Position numbers and translations under genes: made by a program. From Streptantibioticus rubrisoli (GTDB lineage Bacteria > Actinomycetota > Actinomycetes > Streptomycetales > Streptomycetaceae), in the NCBI RefSeq assembly GCF_024436055.1, contig NZ_JANFNH010000015.1, positions 1 to 64,000 on the forward strand: a stretch of 64,000 bases of DNA. The letters run 5' to 3'. A model generated the notes under the pieces. The model made no database searches and was not told the DNA's origin. It worked only from the letters and a program-made list of their open reading frames with translations. Within the stretch, counting starts at the first letter, position 1, and every line of letters begins with the position of its first letter. This document shows, one piece after another, positions 7,808 to 17,594 of the stretch.

Positions 7808-8338
7808 GTGGCGGGGAGTAGTGGGCGGGGCGTGCTGCGGACGTTGGGCGGGTTGCCCGCCGCGGCGACGGCGGTGACCGGGACGGTCGGGCTCTACATG
7901 GCGCTGGTGGCGTTCGGGAACATCACCGACTTCGGCACCAACCAGCAGTTCGTACGGCATGTCCTCGCGATGGACACCACGTTCCACGACAAGGCGCTGA
8001 TGTGGCGGGCGATCACCTCGCACGCCGTCGCGGACACCGCGTATGTGGCCATCATCGCCTGGGAGACGCTCAGCGCGCTCGTGCTGATCGCGGCCACGGT
8101 GCTGTGGGCCCGCGCGGTGCTGCGCGACGGCGACCCCTCCCGTGCCCGGGGCGCGAGCACGCTGGGCCTGGTGATGGTGCTGCTGCTGTTCGGCGCGGGC
8201 TTCGTCGCGATCGGCGGCGAGTGGTTCTCCATGTGGCAGTCGAAGGCCTGGAACGGCCTGGACGCCGCCTCCCGCGACATCCTGCTGGCAGGCGTCTCCC
8301 TGATCGTGGTCCGGCTGCCGCACCGCGACGGCGACTGA
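7808..8338 (+). CDS. DUF2165-family small integral membrane protein
   Basis: The 176-residue protein has four predicted membrane helices (about 12-34, 68-92, 118-140, 155-172). It carries the DUF2165 signatures FGNITDFGTNQQFVRHV and GEWFSMWQSKAWNG. The family is of unknown function; members are predicted small integral membrane proteins. The start is a GTG at 7808 following gggagacacg. It is transcribed away from pobA with 68 bp between the two starts, so a shared promoter region is possible, but no functional link is evident. Confidence 0.85.
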   Translation: MAGSSGRGVLRTLGGLPAAATAVTGTVGLYMALVAFGNITDFGTNQQFVRHVLAMDTTFHDKALMWRAITSHAVADTAYVAIIAWETLSALVLIAATVLWARAVLRDGDPSRARGASTLGLVMVLLLFGAGFVAIGGEWFSMWQSKAWNGLDAASRDILLAGVSLIVVRLPHRDGD

Positions 8339-8347
8339 GCCGCCCGC

Positions 8348-8533
8348 TCAGCCGCGCACTTGCCACCAACGCCAGCACCGGGCGGCCGCGTGGACGATCC
8401 CACCGATCGCCGCCGAGGCCGCCAGCCGCTGCCAGTCACCCATGTCGTCCGGCAGCGCCACCGAGCCGCCGACCCCGACCGCAAGTGCCGCCGTGGGAAC
8501 GGAGTATGACGGGGCGTGGAGCTTCGCGTTCAT
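8348..8533 (-). CDS. Small hypothetical protein
   Basis: A 61-residue frame begins at an ATG at 8533. It has a moderately hydrophobic N-terminal half (TAALAVGVGGSVAL), a second hydrophobic patch (LAASAAIGGIVHAAA) and a tryptophan-rich C-terminus (RCWRWWQVRG). It is convergent with the DUF2165 gene, whose stop is 10 bases away. Codon bias is consistent with coding, but length and composition make it hard to separate from chance. A small membrane peptide is possible. Confidence 0.4.
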   Translation of the reverse strand: MNAKLHAPSYSVPTAALAVGVGGSVALPDDMGDWQRLAASAAIGGIVHAAARCWRWWQVRG

Positions 8534-8656
8534 GCGGACCACCATAGGACGAGCGCGGACCTCGGGATCCGGCCCCCTCCCGGTGAGCGGCCCGGCGCGG
8601 TTTCGACCTATCCTTGAAGGTGTACGGAGCCAGAGGGCCAGAGGAAGCGAAGCCCC

Positions 8657-9022
8657 ATGTCCGGTCTAGTCAACAAGAGCCTTGACTCGCCTGACGAGGT
8701 GCGCCCCTTCGAAGAAGGCAAGGGACAGCTGGAACTCGTCACCGTCGAAGGTGGCGGCGCCGTCGGGCGGGCCACCTTCCAGCCCGGCTGGCAGTGGTCC
8801 AAGCACGTCAAACCGATCGCCCAGACCGAAAGCTGCCAGGCCGCGCACACCGGGTACACCGTCTCGGGACACATGAAGATCGTCATGGACGACGGCGAGG
8901 AGACGGTGATGGGCCCGGGAGACTTCACCATCATCCCGCCCGGCCACGACGCCTGGGTCGTCGGTGACGAACCTTGCGTCGTCGTGGACTGGCAGGGCTA
9001 CGTCGATTACGCGAAGCGGTAG
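8657..9022 (+). CDS. Cupin-domain protein
   Basis: The 121-residue protein is a single small beta-barrel of the cupin_2 class. The two cupin motifs can be placed: GWQWSKHVKPI...HTGYTVSGHMKIVM (about 38-78) and GPGDFTIIPPGHDAWVVGD (about 88-108). Histidines in both motifs could bind a metal. Small cupins of this type may be enzymes or binding proteins, and nothing nearby fixes the substrate. The ATG at 8657 is preceded by gaggaagcga. The last 16 bases of the gene also form the tail of a truncated minus-strand gene, suggesting that a deletion ended here. Confidence 0.85.
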   Translation: MSGLVNKSLDSPDEVRPFEEGKGQLELVTVEGGGAVGRATFQPGWQWSKHVKPIAQTESCQAAHTGYTVSGHMKIVMDDGEETVMGPGDFTIIPPGHDAWVVGDEPCVVVDWQGYVDYAKR

Positions 9023-9162
9023 CGGGCCTCGACGCCACGGGGGCTGGCAAGGTCGACCAGCTGGCCTACCAGACGTTCAACTTCCGCCACCACATGGGCG
9101 GGCACGCCGCTCGCGACGGGCTCGTGATCCGGATCGTACTCCCAGCGCCAGTCCGTGCTCAC
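9007..9162 (-). pseudogene. Truncated partner of the DUF6247-type gene (possible toxin remnant)
   Basis: A GTG at 9162 overlaps the stop of the upstream gene (GTGA) and opens a 51-residue frame starting MSTDWRWEYDPDHEPVASG and continuing through an AHVVAEVERLVGQLVDL helix. It then runs into sequence shared with the cupin 3' end and stops. The start resembles the N-terminus of the short protein often encoded directly after DUF6247 genes in Streptomyces (possibly RelE/ParE-like, from memory). The expected C-terminal half is missing, so the gene is probably broken by deletion. Confidence 0.55.
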
Positions 9163-9511
9163 TGGGCTGTGAGGCCGATGGCCGCATGGGCCTCGTCCAG
9201 GATGCGTCCGATCTCAGAGGCGGCCTGCCGTGCCTGGGCCGCGTCGCCTGACTCGGCGGTGTCTTCCCAGCGGCGGGGTCTGCCGCCAGTTTCGGCTGTC
9301 GCTGGATGTGGACATAGACGGCCCATTGGGCGATGAACCGCTGGAGCGGCGCCAGAGCAGAGCCCTGCCGGGACTGGTCGGCCGCTTGGTCCAACTCCCG
9401 GGTGAACGCCGGTAGTGTGGCAGGCGCGATCTGGCTGATGGCCTGCCGCAGCGCTGCGACAGTGGCAGGGGGCTGGGGGATGAGCGGGTGCCCAGCGGCG
9501 GAGGTGGTCAT
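9159..9511 (-). pseudogene. Frameshifted DUF6247-type gene (possible antitoxin)
   Basis: The frame from ATG 9511 (gggagt upstream) reads MTTSAAGHPLIPQPPATVAALRQ and runs to about 9275. Beyond there the same frame becomes low-complexity, whereas the neighbouring frame continues smoothly as RRWEDTAESGDAAQARQAA, then IGRILDEAHAAIGLTAQ and a stop at 9159-9161. Both halves fit one DUF6247-like protein of ~117 residues, so a single-base indel near 9270-9280 splits it. It is translationally coupled (GTGA) to the truncated downstream gene. A sequencing error is the alternative explanation. Confidence 0.6.
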
Positions 9512-9712
9512 GGTTACTCCCACGGGCGCGATCCTGAGCCCAGGCGTCAGCTCATCGGCCATGAACGACTTCTCCCCGCTCGAACGAGTGAGGCAGAAGC
9601 GATACAGCTGCTCACGTAAACCGCTCGGGCTCACGCCTCGTTGGGTGGCTTGGACGAGGCCGACCCCGGCTCCGGGCGGGTGACACGGCAGGCGCCCGGC
9701 GACGGGGGCGGT

Positions 9713-9824
9713 CTACTTGTCCGTAGCTTCCGGGGCGGGCGCTACACCCACCGGGCACGAGACCCCCGTCCCCCCGATCCCGCAGTAGCCCGCCGGGTTC
9801 TTGTCCAGGTACTGCTGGTGGTAC
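9713..9824 (-). pseudogene. Displaced native 3' end of msrA
   Basis: On the minus strand this segment encodes [18 protein letters not shown], then [18 protein letters not shown] and a stop at 9713-9715. It matches the C-terminus of MsrA but has no start or body. The msrA body lies 5.95 kb to the right, so this is the original chromosomal tail cut off by insertion of the element. It ends at the att core 9810-9824. Confidence 0.88.
9810..9824. other. Left attachment-site core
   Basis: The 15-bp core tactgctggtggtac lies within the displaced msrA tail, 42 bp before the integrase start. It is identical to the copy at 15760-15774, while bases on both sides differ between copies. In msrA it encodes the VPPAV/YHQQY region on the minus strand. 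Confidence 0.85.
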
Positions 9825-9866
9825 AACTCCCCTCCAGGCAACAATAGTTGTGAGAGGGGAGCCGCT

Positions 9867-11357
9867 ATGGCCGAGGCAGCACAGTCCGTCCCCGTAGTGT
9901 CCTACGCACGCATATCCGCCGACACGGCCAGGGACGGCCACGGGGTCGAAGATCAGCACAGGGTGAACGACGAGACGGCCGCGCGCCTGGGCTGGACCAT
10001 CGTCCACCGCTACACGGACAACGACTTATCCGCAGCGAAGGCGAGCGTTGTACGACCGAGCTTCGAAGCGATGTTGAAGGCGCTCAAGGTCGGGCAACTA
10101 CCGGACGGTCAGCAAGTACGAGGCGCGATCGTTGTTGCGGACGACCGCCTCACACGGCGAGCGGGCGACTATGAACGCTTCGTGGACGCCCTCACCTACG
10201 ATGAGGGTCGCGTCTACGCAGACGCGAAGGGGCCGAAGAACCTCTACAGCGAAGACGTAGAGTCCATGGGCCTTTTCGGCGTGGTCATCTCCAAGATGGA
10301 GGTACGCAAAATGCAGCGGCGGACGCGTCGCTCACACCGGCGCCGAGCCGAGCAGGGGATTCCCGTTGGTGGAAAAAGGCCGTTCGGATGGAAGGACGAC
10401 AAGCTCACGCTAGCACCGGAGGAGGCTGCTCTCCTTGCCGAGGCCGCGCGGGATTTGATTGCCGGGCGCTCCCTGCACTCCATTCAACTTGAATGGCGAG
10501 AGAAGGGGGTGCGCACGGTCCACGGTAAAGAGTGGGGAAGCCGTTCCCTCAAGTTGGCACTGTGGAACCCGCGGCTGTGCGGTTGGCGTAAGCACAATGG
10601 TGAGCTAGTCCGTGATGCCAATGGTGTCCCAGTGCAGGGGAAGTGGGAGCCTATCATCACACCGAAAGAGTGGATGGCTATTGATGCCCTCTTCTCATCG
10701 CGGGTTGGGCCGAACGCCAAGGCCGATGGCACGATCACGGACTATAGGACCCCGTCACACTTGCTGACTGGGATACTCCGGTGCGGCAAGCCCAAGGCTG
10801 ATGGGCAGATCTGCAACGCGCCGCTACGGGTGAGCACCAGGCCCGACCTGTCCGGCGGGTACATCTACCAGTGTCCGAGCAAGTCCATGGGCGGATGCGG
10901 CGGGACGGCCCGTAACGGGGCGAAGGTCGATGAGTACATCACTGAAGCCGTCTTGGCCAAGCTCGAAGAGAGGGCAGCCGCCACCCGCAAGGAAGACGCC
11001 GATTGGGGTGGGGAAGAGGAGCTGAACCGGCTGGTCACTAAGCGGCAAAAGATGCTGCAAGCGTGGCAGCAGGATCTAGTTTCCGACGAACTCTTCTTCC
11101 CTGAGAACCATAAGCTTGAGACCAGGATCAAGGAGCTGCGGGCCGAGCGCACACGGCACGCGTTGCAGAGGCAGCGAGCCGCAATCGTTGATGGTGATAT
11201 CCGTGCGCGCTGGAACTCTGAGAAGTTCGATATGGCGCAGAAGCGAGCGCTAATCCGAGAGGCGATGCATGCGGTGATCGTGTTGCCTGTCGGCGGAGGA
11301 GGGAGGCGGGCGTTCAACCCGGATCTTCTCGTCCCCAAGTGGAAAGAAGACTTCTAG
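9867..11357 (+). CDS. Large serine recombinase (integrase)
   Basis: The 496-residue protein belongs to the phiC31/TG1-type large serine integrases. The N-terminal resolvase domain (about 8-150) has YARIS with nucleophile Ser17 and the [15 protein letters not shown] segment. A recombinase domain follows (about 165-275, starting GKRPFGW). A zinc-ribbon domain with four cysteines ([11 protein letters not shown]...[11 protein letters not shown], about 310-355) and a coiled-coil region (about 390-445) complete the expected order. The enzyme should catalyse attP x attB integration at msrA. The start at ATG 9867 has gagagggga upstream. An ACAA-TAG-TTGT inverted repeat (9841-9851) lies before it. It contains one TTA codon (residue 54), so translation may need bldA tRNA. 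Confidence 0.95.
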
Positions 11358-11366
11358 CCGTTACAG

Positions 11367-11402
11367 GCAAAAGGGGCGCTGAACGATCGGCGCCCCTTTT
11401 GC
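11367..11402. terminator. Bidirectional terminator between int and the minus-strand operon
   Basis: A perfect 13-bp stem (11367-11379 with 11390-11402; gcaaaaggggcgc) encloses a 10-base loop and is flanked by A and T runs within the stem ends. It separates the convergent integrase and small-gene transcripts. Confidence 0.9.
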
Positions 11403-11575
11403 TATGCGGCTTTTTTGATCTCTGGTGGCTCCGTATCTGGAGGCTCACCGCGTACCTTCGTTTCGGTTAACTCCAGGCCGAGGATCTTGGAGATGCGTTG
11501 CCAGCGCTCTTCACTCCACGCCGGAGCCTTAGCGGCTTGCATCCGGCCCCATTCGCGGGCGCTGAGGTCACTCAT
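11402..11575 (-). CDS. Small element protein downstream of rep (candidate directionality factor)
   Basis: The 57-residue protein begins MSDLSAREWGRMQAAKAP and has a charged helical centre (SEERWQRISKILGLEL) and an acidic/basic tail. The ATG at 11575 overlaps the rep stop codon by 8 bases, with agagg just before it, so it is translationally coupled to rep. pSAM2 has xis in the rep-xis-int order; by position this could play an excision role for the serine integrase. No recognisable DNA-binding fold is visible, and the role is an inference from place only. Confidence 0.7.
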   Translation of the reverse strand: MSDLSAREWGRMQAAKAPAWSEERWQRISKILGLELTETKVRGEPPDTEPPEIKKAA

Positions 11576-13058
11576 CCTCTGGCCACCTGCCCCCGAAGTC
11601 GGCCAGTGCTGCACGAGCCTCTTCGCGGTTGCGGGCGATGTCGTCGGCGATGCTTCTCGCCATCAGCGCTTCGCCGGGGGTGTGGCCGGAGCCGACGAAC
11701 CGCCAGGACGACTCTTTGACCGCGTTGGGATCGTCGCCCACTCCGGCGGAGCGCCGCTTATGCTCGGCCCGCTCGGCGCGTAGTGCGCTGTAGGTGGTGG
11801 AGTAGCGCCGGGACTTGGTGAGGATGTGGCCCCGGTAGCCGAGGCTGTGAGCCCACAAGCGCAGCCTCAGCGGCTCCAGCTCCGGCAGGGCGCCCAGACG
11901 CCAGCAGGTAGCCATCAAGGCCCGCAGATGGCTACTCACGGGCGCCCGCTGGATCTCCTCCAGGCCGTGCACGTGGTGATCGAGCCCGGAGGCTGTATCC
12001 CCTGCCCCCTTGGTGACGTACTTCGCGACATATCCGGCGACCGCCTCATCCGACAGCCCGTCGCCATCGGCGAATTCTCCGATGGGGCGCACGTCGATCT
12101 GTTGGCCCCAACCGACGCGTTCCAGGCCGTAGGCGTCGGATTCCGGAATGGCCACGTAGGAGGACCGTGCAGCCTGATACACAGCCTCAGTGATTAATTC
12201 GGCAGTTGCCCAGCCTGGCGGAGGCGAATCAGGGCCGTCGGGACCGTCGAGGCGGACCACTGCGTGAAAGTGCACGGCCGCCCGCTTTTGGTATTCGGCA
12301 ACTTTGGCGAACGACACCACGAGGTGGTGACCAAGCTCGCTACGTGGAATGCCACGCGACGCCGCCAGGTGACGCCGTACCGCCGTCGTGAAGCGGTCCC
12401 ATAGCCGTCCGGCGTGAGCGTGCCAGAGCACGTGTCCCACGTAGTCATAGCAAGCAGCGCATAACGGTTTGCCGATCAGTTCATCGTTATCTGAATGTGC
12501 CAGGTTGCAGCCGAGTGGTTCGCCGTGTTCGCACAGGGGAGCACCACGTCGGAACCGGCACACCTCGCCGGGGCCGGTAGCACGGTGGACCGGACCGAAG
12601 GACGGAGCCGTCAAGGTCACGAACAGTCGAGGATGGCCGCGCACCTGTTCTGGCAGGGACTTGCCCCCGGACAGGCCCGAGCGCACCAGGTGGTACGTAT
12701 CCCCGGCATGCAGTCGTGAGCACGGTTCGCACACCGAGGCACGGCGGTTGCCGCACCGCACGGCCAGGCGATCCCCCGGTTCGTCGGTCGTCGAGTAGGA
12801 GACTAGTATTTCCCCGGTCGATGCGTCACGGGTGACGCTATAGCCGGACAGGTAGACAGGGTGCGCGCACCCGCCTATGTCCCGTATCTGTTCGAGCCAC
12901 CGCTGGTACCCAGGGTCGTTCGCTAGGCGAATCAAATCCCGCATGGTTTCCGGCAGTGCGCGTATGCGTGCTTCCCGCTCCAGTTCGGCGGAACGTGTAG
13001 CCGGATCGCTGAAGTGGGCGTGAGTGGGTTGAGAATCGGCATTGGATATGCCGGACAC
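11568..13058 (-). CDS. RepSA-like rolling-circle replication initiator
   Basis: The 496-residue protein is of the Streptomyces plasmid/AICE replication-initiator class. A cysteine-rich N-terminal region has CGNRRASVCEPC (near 110) and CEHGEPLGC...CAAC (about 180-215), which could bind zinc. The HUH metal motif is VHFHAV at 263-265. The catalytic tyrosine motif is probably VAGYVAKYVTKGAG near residue 327. The GTG at 13058 was chosen because ggagg lies 7 bases upstream; the upstream in-frame extension is low-quality. It contains one TTA codon (residue 288). It should nick at a double-strand origin and support replication of the excised circle. Confidence 0.9.
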   Translation of the reverse strand: MSGISNADSQPTHAHFSDPATRSAELEREARIRALPETMRDLIRLANDPGYQRWLEQIRDIGGCAHPVYLSGYSVTRDASTGEILVSYSTTDEPGDRLAVRCGNRRASVCEPCSRLHAGDTYHLVRSGLSGGKSLPEQVRGHPRLFVTLTAPSFGPVHRATGPGEVCRFRRGAPLCEHGEPLGCNLAHSDNDELIGKPLCAACYDYVGHVLWHAHAGRLWDRFTTAVRRHLAASRGIPRSELGHHLVVSFAKVAEYQKRAAVHFHAVVRLDGPDGPDSPPPGWATAELITEAVYQAARSSYVAIPESDAYGLERVGWGQQIDVRPIGEFADGDGLSDEAVAGYVAKYVTKGAGDTASGLDHHVHGLEEIQRAPVSSHLRALMATCWRLGALPELEPLRLRLWAHSLGYRGHILTKSRRYSTTYSALRAERAEHKRRSAGVGDDPNAVKESSWRFVGSGHTPGEALMARSIADDIARNREEARAALADFGGRWPEDE

Positions 13059-13210
13059 GAGGCATCCTCCAAAGCATGTAGTCGTTGACCTTACGGTGAA
13101 CCATGCGAGGCATGGATAGTTCCTTCCTTGGCTTGCCGAGAGGCAGCGCGGCACCCAGCGCGGGTGACATGACTTTTCCGCTCTCCATAGTCCCACGCGC
13201 CTCTAACAAT

Positions 13211-13231
13211 TTCAGCGAATAATCGGCTGAA
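13211..13231. promoter_or_regulatory. Inverted repeat upstream of rep
   Basis: ttcagc (13211-13216) and gctgaa (13226-13231) form an inverted repeat around an AT-rich centre, about 150 bp upstream of the rep start, in a short lower-GC stretch. It could be an operator for the element's GntR repressor or part of the replication control region. No regulator match can be shown from sequence alone. Confidence 0.4.
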
Positions 13232-13269
13232 TTAGTTCCCCACAAAGGAACTTGACTTAGCGTCAGGAT

Positions 13270-13876
13270 GCCGCGCGGCAGGGATGTCACCAGCCGCCGC
13301 AGGCCGCCCGCCCCAGCGCCGATGCGCAGCGACCCGACCCCAGCCGGAGCCTGGGGCGTCGTGGCGGAAACTGTCTTTACTGGATCAAGTGCGCCGCGCC
13401 TGCGGCGCGCCGCCCGCCCGCCAGCCCGCCCGGCGTGCGACCTTCGGCCGGTCCGGTCGGGCGCGGGCGGTCGGCGACCGCAGTCGCGGCCCTTGACCGT
13501 ACGACCACCCGCCAGGCGACCAGGCCGACCACGGCAGGCCGTTGCATATCAGCCCGGGCCGATGGGCCATTGCGGCTGTGAGCACCTGGCCGTGCGGGAT
13601 CCACGCCAGCCCGTGCCATGGGTGGCCATCTGGCCGGGGGACGCTGACAGGTCAGAGGATCGTGGCTGATGGGGCGGCCCGTGCCCCACGTGGAAGCGCG
13701 GGCGTTCTCTGAGCCGCCTATTCGCCGTGAGGACAAGCGCCGTTGGCGCCAACGGTCGAGAGCGCATCCCTCAGAGACGGGAGGAGTGGCTGGTGTGGGC
13801 GGGGGTTGCTCGCGCACACGCGTGCGTGATCGTTCGGCACCCCCGCCGTCGTGCTTGACTTTCTGTGGCTCAGGAC
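13270..13876. other. Gene-free structured region, candidate replication origin
   Basis: About 600 bp between rep and the GntR gene lack a convincing gene; open frames here are Arg/Pro-rich and have no start signals. It includes a palindromic gcgccgcgcctgcggcgcg tract near 13388-13410. It also includes a nested hairpin: a 9-bp outer stem ggcgggggt (13798-13806) with acccccgcc (13839-13847), and an inner stem cgcac (13813-13817) with gtgcg (13822-13826). The hairpin sits just after the GntR gene, so it may act as its terminator. As the only large non-coding part of the element, the region is also the best place for dso/sso. Confidence 0.4.
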
Positions 13877-14602
13877 TCAGGGGTGATACTCGTAACCGAT
13901 GGTCAGCCGAGGCGGGAGACACCACTCCCCGTACTCGATTATTCCCTCGTCGTCCCCGAGACGTGTTGCTCCGGCGAGGATGGCTGTTCCAACGGCTATG
14001 CCCAGTCCGTTCGCCTCACGCTGATCAGCCGTGCGGGCGTGCTGATCGTCGCGCCCAACCGTCAACGTGCGTCCCGTGACCTCAAGGATGCGCATGAGTA
14101 GATCATCATGCTTTGCCGGTGCAGTGCTGAGTAGGTCCGGCACAAGCGCCGCGAACGAGGCGGGATACCAGTTGACCCCGAAGGAGAGTCGTACGCTTCC
14201 GCGAGCAGTGATGTACTCGCGCCGGACTACTTGATCGCCGTCCTCCAAATCGAAGATGTCGCCCACGTAAGAGGGCGGACGGACGATGGACGCAGAGGTG
14301 ATCTCTACGGTCTCGCCTTCCATCAGAATCCCACGGAGACGCGTAGCGCGAGCCAAGCGGTCACGTCCGCTTGAGCCAACTGACGGAGCGTCGGAGACGA
14401 AGGTCCCGCGCGGACTGGTCCTGATCAGATTCTCGGAGGCCAGTTGTCCCAGGGCGCGCTGGATAGTCGTTACAGCGACGCCATGCTGTGAAGCCATGGC
14501 CTTGTTGCTGGGCAGTCGCGTGCCCGAGGCCAACTCTCCACCGTAGATCTGTCGCCGGTAGTGGTCAGCGATGTCTGCGTAGGTGCGCAGCGCGTCTGGC
14601 AT
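13877..14602 (-). CDS. GntR-family transcriptional regulator (HutC/UTRA type)
   Basis: The 241-residue protein has an N-terminal winged helix-turn-helix (about 5-72: YADIADHYRRQIYGGELASG, LPSNKAMASQHGVAVTTIQRAL, RTSPRGTFV). A UTRA-like effector domain covers about 90-235 (EITSASIVRPPSYVGDIFDLE, VRREYITARGSVRLSFGVNW). pSAM2-type elements use a GntR protein (KorSA) to silence transfer and replication activators, and this gene occupies that role here. The ATG at 14602 is preceded by aggagag. The divergent promoter region carries several palindromes that may be its operators. Confidence 0.9.
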   Translation of the reverse strand: MPDALRTYADIADHYRRQIYGGELASGTRLPSNKAMASQHGVAVTTIQRALGQLASENLIRTSPRGTFVSDAPSVGSSGRDRLARATRLRGILMEGETVEITSASIVRPPSYVGDIFDLEDGDQVVRREYITARGSVRLSFGVNWYPASFAALVPDLLSTAPAKHDDLLMRILEVTGRTLTVGRDDQHARTADQREANGLGIAVGTAILAGATRLGDDEGIIEYGEWCLPPRLTIGYEYHP

Positions 14603-14650
14603 GTCGTCTCTCCTGATCGTCACGCGTGAGGGTAGTCCGCTCACCGTTCC

Positions 14651-14701
14651 CCTTGTAGTCCAAGGTATCTCGCTCATACAGTGAGGTACTTCACTTGCAA
14701 G
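14651..14701. promoter_or_regulatory. Operator-like palindromes between gntR and the small-gene operon
   Basis: Three palindromes lie close together: CCTTG-tagtc-CAAGG (14651-14665), AGTGAgGTACtTCACT (14680-14695) and cttgcaag (14694-14701). The second resembles the symmetric 16-bp operators of HutC-type GntR proteins. They lie between divergent starts at 14602 and 14723, as expected for autoregulation plus control of the operon. Confidence 0.6.
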
Positions 14702-14722
14702 GTAGGAGGTGGGGAGACAGGT

Positions 14723-14947
14723 ATGTCCGCACCCAGAAGCACACCGTTAGACATTGCGGAGCATGCAGCTCGCGAGCTACGCGAGGCGATCACCATGACT
14801 GGCGTTGCTGCGCCGATGCTCCTGATCGGTGGTCAAGCGAACATAGACGAACCGAGAGTTCAACTTGGTGGCACGGACGCAGATGCAGCGCTTGAGCTTG
14901 CTAAGTGGATCAGGGCGCACGCCACAGGAGAGGGGTGCGCGCGGTGA
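14723..14947 (+). CDS. Small element-encoded hypothetical protein
   Basis: The 74-residue protein begins MSAPRSTPLDIAEHAARELREA and continues with GVAAPMLLIGGQANIDE and an amphipathic C-terminal helix (DADAALELAKWIRAHA). The ATG at 14723 has ggagg and gggga sites upstream, better supported than an ATG 42 bases earlier. It is the first gene of a two-gene operon divergent from gntR; its stop overlaps the next start (GTGA). I do not recognise a family; small genes like this follow the GntR regulator in many Streptomyces integrative elements. Confidence 0.75.
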   Translation: MSAPRSTPLDIAEHAARELREAITMTGVAAPMLLIGGQANIDEPRVQLGGTDADAALELAKWIRAHATGEGCAR

Positions 14948-15483
14948 GTGCAGCAGTCTGGGCAGAGGGCTACTTCAAGAAGGATCCGATCTCGGACGGG
15001 CGTACCTCGCCACGTTCCTACCGACTGACGTATGGGGATACGGACCAGAGCTTCTATCAGGCCCGTCGCGCTCTGCTTGCCATGGCCAGGGTTGTCAGCA
15101 CACTCAACCTGACACCAACCGAGCGCCACGCATGGCGGAGTTGGTACACGTTGGCCAACCACAGGGCCACGATCAAGCGCCTACATGAAGGCAAGGTGTT
15201 CGAGTTCGGTATCAGCAGCAACGGAAGGCAGATCATCTTCCGCATCACACCTACCGTTGATCAAGAGCGTGCGCAGGTGGCTAGGCGGTACATTAAGTAC
15301 CACTGTGACCGCTGCTGTGCCCTAATCGACATCTCCGCCCTCAACCGCAAGCCATGCGTGCTGACCGACTTGTTCGGCAACAACGTCGAAGTGGCCACGG
15401 AGTTGGTCTGTAAGGACGAGACGGCTTGTAGGGCGCGTAGGTGCCAGAGGGAGTCCGAGGCTCAACGTCGGAAGTTGCTCTAG
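14944..15483 (+). CDS. Element-encoded hypothetical protein with cysteine clusters
   Basis: The 179-residue protein starts at the GTG at 14944, overlapping the previous stop by 4 bases. Residues 60-110 resemble a compact alpha/beta region (TPTERHAWRSWYTLANHRATI, VFEFGISSNGRQIIFRITP). The C-terminal third has paired cysteines (HCDRCCALID, RKPCVL, LVCKDETACRARRC) that may form a zinc site. No known domain is recognised. It is followed at once by a strong terminator, closing the element's right-hand operon. Confidence 0.78.
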   Translation: MSAAVWAEGYFKKDPISDGRTSPRSYRLTYGDTDQSFYQARRALLAMARVVSTLNLTPTERHAWRSWYTLANHRATIKRLHEGKVFEFGISSNGRQIIFRITPTVDQERAQVARRYIKYHCDRCCALIDISALNRKPCVLTDLFGNNVEVATELVCKDETACRARRCQRESEAQRRKLL

Positions 15484-15497
15484 CAAGTCCATGAACC

Positions 15498-15537
15498 GCC
15501 CCGCCCGGCGCTCATCCCCCGAAGCGCCGGGCGGGGC
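15498..15537 (+). terminator. Strong rho-independent-like terminator of the element operon
   Basis: A perfect 15-bp stem (15498-15512 with 15523-15537; gccccgcccggcgct) encloses a 10-base loop, 14 bp after the stop at 15483. Confidence 0.9.
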
Positions 15538-15625
15538 TTATCTCTGTCCGAACCCAGCATGAGGAAGCGCCGCAAGCTACACGCACAACTCGATCTCCCT
15601 CAGCCCCGAGGCCGAACCACGTACG

Positions 15626-15663
15626 CCGACGCCCCCGGAAACCTCAACGGCCGGGGGCGTCGG
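15626..15663. terminator. Terminator downstream of msrA, carried by the element
   Basis: A perfect 13-bp stem (15626-15638 with 15651-15663; ccgacgcccccgg) encloses a 12-base loop. It lies 11 bp beyond the msrA stop and inside the element, so the element brings both a replacement tail and a terminator. Confidence 0.85.
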
Positions 15664-15674
15664 TCTGTCCGGCA

Positions 15675-16334
15675 TCAGCCCTCAGCCGGAGCTACGCCGA
15701 TCGGGCAAGAAACGCCCGTCCCCCCAATCCCGCAGTACCCGGTTTTGTTGCGGTCGAGATACTGCTGGTGGTACGGCTCCGCCGGGTAGAAGGGGGCGGC
15801 GGGGGCGATCTCGGTGGTGATCGGGCCGTAGCCCGCCTTGGACAGGGTGGACTGGTAGGCGTCGCGGGAGGCGGTCGCGGCGGACTGCTGGGCGGGGGAG
15901 TGGGTGTAGATCGCGGAGCGGTACTGGGTGCCGATGTCGTTGCCCTGGCGGAAGCCCTGCGTGGGGTCGTGGGACTCCCAGAAGACCTTCAGCAACTGCT
16001 CGTAGGAGACCACGGCCGGGTCGAAGACGACGCGGACGGCCTCCGTGTGGCCGGTCTGGCCGCCGCAGACCTCCTCGTAGCTGGGGTTCGGGGTGTGCCC
16101 GCCCTGGTAGCCGACGAGCGTGGTCCACACACCGGGCGTCTGCCAGAACCGGCGCTCCGCGCCCCAGAAGCAGCCCAGGCCGAAGTCCGCCACCTCGAGG
16201 CCCTGCGGGTACGGTCCGGCCAGCGGGTTGCCCAGTACGGTGTGCCGCTCGGGCAGCGGGAACTGCGGCTCGGCGTGGCCGGGCAGGGCCTCCTCGGCGG
16301 TCGGCAGCTTGGTCTTGAAGCGGTTCAGGAACAT
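15675..16334 (-). CDS. msrA: Peptide-methionine (S)-S-oxide reductase, with element-derived C-terminus
   Basis: The 219-residue protein reduces methionine-S-sulfoxide in damaged proteins. The catalytic motif GCFWG contains Cys55; [12 protein letters not shown] and the EPYHQQYL segment are also conserved. The C-terminal [13 protein letters not shown] region carries the likely resolving cysteines. The last ~32 codons (15675-15774) come from the integrated element and end PIGVAPAEG, replacing the native [13 protein letters not shown] tail now at 9713. Both tails keep every cysteine, so the hybrid should be active. It is divergent from metB with a 99-bp intergenic region. Confidence 0.95.
15760..15774. 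other. Right attachment-site core
   Basis: This copy of tactgctggtggtac lies inside the current msrA reading frame. Bases to its right belong to the chromosomal msrA body and bases to its left to the element. Seven bases, ttgttgc (15745-15751), to its left are the complement of gcaacaa at 9838-9844 beside the left core, as expected for the arms of an attP site. Confidence 0.85.
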
Positions 16335-16433
16335 CGGCTGGTCTCCTCACTGCGTGCGCTCTCCACCAGAACGTAACGCCGGGCCTGGGGATTCCGGCGA
16401 GCGCACCGGGTCCGGCGCATTACGCTCGGGCAC

Positions 16434-17594
16434 ATGAGCGACCAGCACACCGAGCGGCAGCACAGTTTCGAGACCCTCGCCATCCACGCGGGCCAGCCCG
16501 CCGACGCGCAGACCGGCGCCGTCGTCACCCCCATCTACCAGGTGTCCACCTACAAGCAGGACGGCGTGGGCGGCCTGCGCTGCGGCTACGAGTACAGCCG
16601 TTCCGCCAACCCCACCAGGACCGCGCTGGAGGAGAACCTCGCCGCCCTGGAAGGCGGTCGGCGCGGCCTCGCCTTCGCCTCCGGGCTGGCGGCCGAGGAC
16701 TGCCTGCTGCGCACCGTCCTGGTGCCCGGTGACCACGTGGTGATCCCCAACGACGCCTACGGCGGTACGTTCCGCCTGTTCAGCAAGGTCGTCGAGCGCT
16801 GGGGCGTGCAGTGGTCGGTGGCCAACACCTCCGACCCGGCCGAGGTGCGCGCCCAACTGCGGCCCAACACCAAGGTGGTCTGGGTGGAGACGCCCAGCAA
16901 CCCGCTGCTCGGCATCACGGACATCGCGGCGGTCGCCGACATCGCCCGCGGCGCGGGCGCGCTGCTGGTGGTCGACAACACCTTCGCCAGCCCCTACCTC
17001 CAGCAGCCGCTGGCGCTCGGCGCGGACGTGGTGGTGCACTCCACCACCAAGTACATGGGCGGGCACTCCGACGTGGTCGGCGGCGCCCTGGTCACCACGG
17101 ACGCCGAACTCGGCGAGCGGCTGGCGTACCACCAGAACGCGATGGGCGCGGTGGCCGGGCCGTTCGACGCCTGGCTGGTGATGCGCGGCATCAAGACGCT
17201 GGCGGTACGGATGGACCGGCACAGCGCCAACGCCGCGCGCATCGCGGAGATGCTGGTCAACCACCCCAAGGTGACCCAGGTGTTCTACCCCGGGCTGCCC
17301 GAGCACACCGGCCACGAGGTGGCCGCCAAGCAGATGCGGGCGTTCGGCGGCATGATCTCGTTCCGGGTCACCGGCGGCGAGGAGGCGGCCGTCGAGGTGT
17401 GCAACCGCGCGAAGCTGTTCACCCTCGGAGAGTCGCTGGGCGGCGTGGAGTCGCTGATCGAGCACCCGGGTCGGATGACCCACGCCTCGGCCGCGGGCTC
17501 CGCCCTGGAGGTCCCCTCCGACCTGGTCCGGCTGTCGGTCGGCATCGAGTCCGTGGACGACCTGCTGACGGACCTCACCGAGGCCCTCGGGTAA
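16434..17594 (+). CDS. metB: Cystathionine gamma-synthase / gamma-lyase family enzyme
   Basis: The 386-residue PLP enzyme belongs to the Cys/Met metabolism family. The cofactor lysine is Lys206 in HSTTKYMGGHSDVVGG. The phosphate-binding and active-site tyrosine region YEYSRSANPTR lies near residue 54, and the PSNPLLG motif lies near 152. In Streptomyces this member is usually annotated as cystathionine gamma-synthase, joining O-acyl-homoserine and cysteine; gamma-lyase activity (reverse transsulfuration) cannot be excluded. The ATG at 16434 is used. Its last 20 bases overlap the convergent membrane-protein gene. It is divergent from msrA, fitting a sulfur amino-acid theme. Confidence 0.92.
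   Translation: MSDQHTERQHSFETLAIHAGQPADAQTGAVVTPIYQVSTYKQDGVGGLRCGYEYSRSANPTRTALEENLAALEGGRRGLAFASGLAAEDCLLRTVLVPGDHVVIPNDAYGGTFRLFSKVVERWGVQWSVANTSDPAEVRAQLRPNTKVVWVETPSNPLLGITDIAAVADIARGAGALLVVDNTFASPYLQQPLALGADVVVHSTTKYMGGHSDVVGGALVTTDAELGERLAYHQNAMGAVAGPFDAWLVMRGIKTLAVRMDRHSANAARIAEMLVNHPKVTQVFYPGLPEHTGHEVAAKQMRAFGGMISFRVTGGEEAAVEVCNRAKLFTLGESLGGVESLIEHPGRMTHASAAGSALEVPSDLVRLSVGIESVDDLLTDLTEALG

Follow-up and report, generated by a model that had tools for sequence, protein, structure and literature searches.

A 5,950 bp element of the RepSA type lies within the 3' part of msrA in the window (the whole stretch of Streptantibioticus rubrisoli DNA analysed, 64,000 nucleotides), and it was very likely inserted there by its own large serine integrase, using an attP of about 50 bp with a predicted exchange at the dinucleotide TG (positions 9819-9820 / 15769-15770). 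The predicted attP partly overlaps the msrA tail that the element carries, so that insertion would not break msrA. Features of the element and of its junctions are given in Table 1.

Table 1. Features of the msrA element and its predicted attachment sites in the window.
Feature	Position	Strand	Basis
Displaced native msrA 3' end (...APEATDK stop)	9713..9823	-	42/45 bases against G002 msrA
attL core repeat TACTGCTGGTGGTAC	9810..9824	.	Reverse complement encodes MsrA YHQQY
Predicted attP right half (P'): TG, inner region, outer arm GCAACAA (9838-9844)	9819..9844	+	Window sequence and attP symmetry
Large serine integrase, 496 aa	9867..11357	+	Pfam Resolvase, Recombinase, Zn_ribbon_recom; phrog_95
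Conserved small protein beside RepSA, 70 aa	11402..11614	-	Matches in 32/52 loci
RepSA replication initiator, pSAM2 type	11568..13196	-	PF20199, E 1.4e-156
GntR/UTRA regulator	13877..14677	-	PF00392 and PF07702
Open frame of unknown function, 88 aa	14681..14947	+	Pfam and PHROG searched
Open frame of unknown function, 192 aa	14905..15483	+	Weak LssY_C match below cut-off
Present msrA reading frame: 5' part chromosomal (from 15771), 3' end supplied by the element (15675-15770, LDRNKTGYC...)	15675..16334	-	Translation and Pfam/NCBIfam
Predicted attP left half (P): outer arm TTGTTGC (15745-15751) to TG (15769-15770)	15745..15770	+	Window sequence and attP symmetry
attR core repeat	15760..15774	.	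Same 15-bp core

The integrase gene starts 42 bp past the attL core, and its product has an N-terminal Resolvase domain (PF00239) followed by Recombinase (PF07508) and zinc-ribbon (PF13408) domains, all above the cut-off, with a PHROG match to a phage integrase family; the nearest solved structure by sequence was 9iu2, a weak match. The 70-aa protein gave no match in Pfam, NCBIfam or PHROG; it contains a conserved AREWG..QAA..P.WS..KW.RI motif and is encoded near RepSA in nearly all matching loci, and our guess is that it could be a directionality factor or a regulator. Rfam gave no match at positions 9000-16500, and promoter and terminator scans yielded results at chance level. With regard to the AICE criteria, the RepSA initiator and site-specific integration with flanking repeats are present and the TraB translocase is absent. 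Since no FtsK match was obtained with Pfam in the six element frames, and none of the 19 FtsK_SpoIIIE matches in the genome lay on the contig holding the window (C11), the element was taken to have no TraB, and it is therefore regarded as a TraB-less derivative and not filed as a full AICE. A RepSA gene together with an integrase is shared with pSAM2-type actinomycete integrative and conjugative elements, and three Streptomyces integrase relatives (L019, L026 and L029) also encode a TraB-like protein of the FtsK family, as found with eight crudely picked FtsK-family query frames of which only the one from L136 gave matches, so that a non-match in a relative does not equal absence. The window element differs from the pSAM2 type in having a serine and not a tyrosine integrase, and in having no TraB. 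According to the accessible part of one survey, serine integrases occurred in 19 of 144 AICEs (PMC3218068).

The 15-bp core corresponds to the YHQQY codons near the end of MsrA. In a genome of the same genus (G002), msrA is uninterrupted and free of the element, and the two chromosomal flanks are exactly 15 bases apart, the length of the core; identity was 93% for the right flank (2,059 bases) and 91% for the displaced 3' end (69 bases). The native MsrA end (LDKNPAGYC...) has been left at attL, and the element supplies the end LDRNKTGYC...; over 45 bases, the displaced end agreed with msrA of G002 and of a second genome (G001) at 42 and 41 positions, respectively, compared with 31 and 32 for the supplied end. 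Since the left half of attP continues the msrA frame and a complete substitute C-terminus comes after it, the reading frame of msrA stays open. Out of 61 genomes of the family searched, msrA was found in 31 (E 1e-60), and 29 genes besides the window's own were fetched. In none of these 29 other genomes was an element gene located within 1.5 kb of msrA, and each contained one core-like site; the residues RN[KIV] were found in none of the 27 genes that could be read, and two more gave no match to the motif. On the side past the displaced msrA end, window positions 8000-9740 did not align to the 1.5 kb beyond msrA in G002 or G001, so that msrA may border a variable region on this side.

The core occurs twice in the window, and joining the element's ends over it produces a span of 50 bp centred on T-G, in which the outer arms TTGTTGC and GCAACAA form a perfect 7-bp inverted pair; core, arms, length and central TG are all exactly as claimed in the initial annotation. 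Read on the opposite strand, the left half gives the MsrA residues QQYLDRNK. By chance, inverted runs of 7 bp or more about some core dinucleotide arose in 2.1% of 20,000 trials when flanks were shuffled and in 4.1% of 20,000 when window flanks were paired at random, and the window attP alone had 11/24 symmetric matches about TG and 10/24 about the next centre (position 8). Given a chance of 2-4% for such arms, the single locus cannot settle the attP: the arms and the TG are real, taken alone they are weak and only suggestive, and the case is carried by the comparative data.

One scan produced 52 integrase relatives, 26 of which lie at the same msrA codons, with a 3' end of msrA on the side of the integrase. 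The second msrA end was present in the same locus for 18 of the 26 (19 attL/attR pairs with the window), and was obtained by genome search for the other 8, on the same contig (L019, L026, L029) or on another contig (L028, L032, L035, L043, L054). Three msrA ends are found in tandem in L026, and the one with YHQQY was used; the second end of L029 looks native. Symmetry was counted in 22 of 27 attPs (L029, L022, L024, L025 and L027 were left out), 5 of the 22 joining pieces from different contigs; the sequences are related, and the counts do not represent independent events. At E 1e-40, the phage collection yielded no relative of the integrase; one was found among the plasmids, in a Nonomuraea record of 11.9 Mb. 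The integrase tree carries no weight here (L064 was excluded for a frameshift, the frame of L012 was wrong and L068 formed a long branch).

Multiple msrA 3' ends in tandem were observed in L051 (849, 4787, 5725, 8931, 14792), L033, L064, L040, L043 and L142, which suggests repeated insertions (accretion) at msrA. Five loci (L020, L022, L023, L025, L027) hold very short msrA elements of about 2.4-3.7 kb; these encode an integrase and gave no RepSA match. Eleven other relatives are apparently inserted in an aldo/keto reductase gene (supported by Pfam PF00248 for L052 only, and judged from very little sequence for L037). At nine of these loci attR was sought, and it was found for five (L052, L053, L036, L050 and L047, that of L050 being on another contig) and not for L063, L044, L059 or L042; L041 had no close match. 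Integrases of L045, L049, L046, L048, L055-L058 and L061 lie in other genes, taken by eye to be rtcB, a symporter, metE, a GH18 chitinase and an HNH gene; the metE guess, for L048, had no Pfam match. Repeat searches for attR at non-msrA loci gave nothing useful.

A direct repeat could also arise if the conserved YHQQY codons belonged to a partial duplication of msrA, the arms being there by chance, which would be in keeping with a core that is a conserved protein motif and with the single-locus arm chance of 2-4%. We regard such an origin as very improbable, given that the integrase gene starts beside the repeat in 26 relatives, that a relative (G002) has the empty site, that the arm is absent from 27/27 displaced ends and from 27/27 msrA genes of other genomes, and that a second target gene shows the same architecture.

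For insertion by the integrase, the position of the exchange was approached from the junctions and from attP symmetry. Taken at face value, the 19 attL/attR pairs have only core positions 4-7 in common, a block that excludes TG 10/11; when six altered attLs were set aside, the block common to the remaining 13 pairs comprised positions 4-11. The altered attLs differ at core position 8 (L021), 9 (L024), 10 (L025 and L027) or 11 (L022 and L031), and the attL of L028 also differs at position 10. In four attLs (L022, 8743; L024, 856; L025, 8932; L027, 6318), 1-2 bp are lost at or beside the predicted dinucleotide, with attR cores intact; these losses possibly reflect imprecise joining or later decay, and would lock the element in place. 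The six altered attLs may represent changes in an unselected attL after or during integration. Among 15 attPs, the axis at 10/11 was the best of 47 centres (mean 12.4/26, relative to 9.87 for the next and 10.6 for the best single-base axis), and its symmetry was reached by 23 of 5000 column permutations in which relatedness was kept. For the 22 attPs the mean symmetry was 12.0/24 at TG 10/11, followed by 8.32 at position 7, and in 19 of them TG 10/11 alone ranked first among 14 axes (L020 and L038 showed ties, and L023 favours another axis). Symmetry at 10/11 was absent from attB, the best centres of which were -11 and 7, with coding constraint as a confounding factor. Within the range 4-11 common to the 13 pairs, symmetry picks out the axis at TG 10/11, and the crossover in attP is very probably located there.

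The same integrase, acting on the same msrA target, might instead make its exchange to the left of TG 10/11 (at TG 4-5, GC 5-6, CT 6-7 or TG 7-8), as the face-value overlap of the 19 pairs and the rank of centre 7 as second-best axis in both attB and the 22 attPs would allow. This is unlikely, since mean symmetry (of 24) was 6.0 at position 4, 5.77 at 5, 2.59 at 6 and 8.32 at 7, compared to 12.0 at 10, TG 7-8 itself is excluded at face value by L021, and the pairs that exclude TG 10/11 are those carrying an altered, unselected attL. The aldo/keto reductase group also argues against a leftward exchange: there the common TT sits exactly on the axis, and in the msrA group the GC of the right arm is found at the matching distance. 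The five aldo/keto reductase attPs are symmetric about TT at 15, 11, 14, 19 and 17 of 26 matches, respectively (mean 15.2/26, next axis 9.0), a mean reached by none of 20,000 permutations. In two of the five attL/attR pairs (L036 and L047), TT alone is common at the junction, and the other three pairs have 8-12 bp in common. By sequence, this group would pin the crossover dinucleotide TT onto the symmetry axis, and the same geometry would centre the msrA group on TG. The proposal of a large serine integrase attP with TG crossover is supported by the integrase domains, the empty site in G002, the relatives at the msrA site, the symmetry in 19/22 attPs and the TT group.

The left outer arm of attP lies within the restored msrA reading frame. 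GCA was found at offsets 18-20 in 23 of the 27 element-supplied ends (exceptions L022, L028, L029 and L054), in 0 of the 27 displaced ends and in 0 of 27 msrA genes of other genomes. The right attP half contains the same motif in 19/27 cases, the others being shifted or divergent, and 8/27 right half-sites do not have GC at offsets 18-19. The supplied ends vary in protein sequence (HRNKNGYC, DRNINGYC, SSSKNPNGYC) and mostly keep the DNA motif, and the natural reading would be that integrase binding shapes msrA codons. Conservation of GCAACAA for the residue needs of MsrA, as opposed to integrase binding, would be consistent with an arm that is coding and with most supplied ends reading RN[KIV]. 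It appears improbable, given that the ends of L019, L026 and L027 read S[SG]SKNP with GCA still at offsets 18-20 (L028, with SDSKNP, has none there), that neither displaced ends nor the msrA genes of other genomes carry the arm, and that the motif recurs in the right arm, outside msrA. Favouring integrase binding, we consider it probable that a predicted outer binding motif is written in the frame of the target gene, so that the att site dictates MsrA amino acids; that different lineages have arrived at one DNA motif, equally far from the crossover, via different residues (HRNK/DRNK or SSSKN); and that the site geometry was kept when related integrases moved to other genes.

In the mechanism proposed, the attP of the circular form, about 50 bp long, would consist of two half-sites flanking TG. 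Each would comprise an inner region and, at offsets 18-24, a motif of the GCAACAA type, the place contacted by the zinc domain of related enzymes and presumably bound by this integrase as well. The integrase would pair attP with the YHQQY codons of msrA, cut both sites to leave 2-base overhangs at TG, and then swap strands. After insertion, the msrA frame would stay open through the supplied C-terminus, and the native end would be left at attL. The repeats, the empty site in G002, the exchange of msrA ends, the recurrence among relatives and the symmetry axis are seen in the sequences themselves; cleavage at TG, binding of the arms by the integrase, present mobility of the element and activity of the altered MsrA are inferred.

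Among large serine integrases, Bxb1 and phiC31 use a short attP that has an outer motif and, at its centre, a non-palindromic dinucleotide. The window integrase has the domain order of the A118/LI, Bxb1 and phiC31 enzymes, and its predicted attP is built in the same way. For A118/LI, the accessible part of PMC3783163 places the zinc-domain motif at half-site positions 16-24, in agreement with offsets 18-24 here, and about 5 bp nearer the centre in attB of large serine integrases. The window integrase differs from A118/LI, Bxb1 and phiC31 in belonging to a different lineage, as judged by the phage collection result, in having msrA as target, and in that one attP half lies in coding sequence which restores the target. 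Exchange of target 3' ends is described, in the accessible part of PMC4701971, for rumA-inserted streptococcal elements that have a single serine integrase; in that case the end exchanged with rumA is that of the integrase gene itself, whereas the window element brings a homologous msrA end. A Streptomyces element, AICE03 of strain RLB3-6, is inserted in rlmN with an 11-bp repeat (PMC9513070, accessible text); both elements lie in a protein-coding gene with a repeat, their targets differ (rlmN and msrA), and they are likened by target and repeat only. Many islands restore their target gene, according to the accessible part of a 2026 paper (PMC12884075). In the main texts covered, no report of msrA or methionine sulfoxide reductase as an integrase target was found, and term matches in the main texts of PMC10083194, PMC12884075, PMC4111918, PMC7460540 and PMC9513070 did not show msrA as a target; within this scope, the annotation's suggestion of a new integration system targeting msrA is a fair one.

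Within the literature covered, the element represents a new target and a new family inside a known kind of system, and its interest lies in the overlap of attP with codons and in retargeting among related integrases. It offers a predicted integrase together with its attP and attB, for gene-preserving insertion into a gene that many actinobacteria possess. The clade provides natural attP/attB pairs at msrA, at the aldo/keto reductase gene and, probably, at several others, and such pairs make the choice of target by serine integrases, and its change, directly testable.
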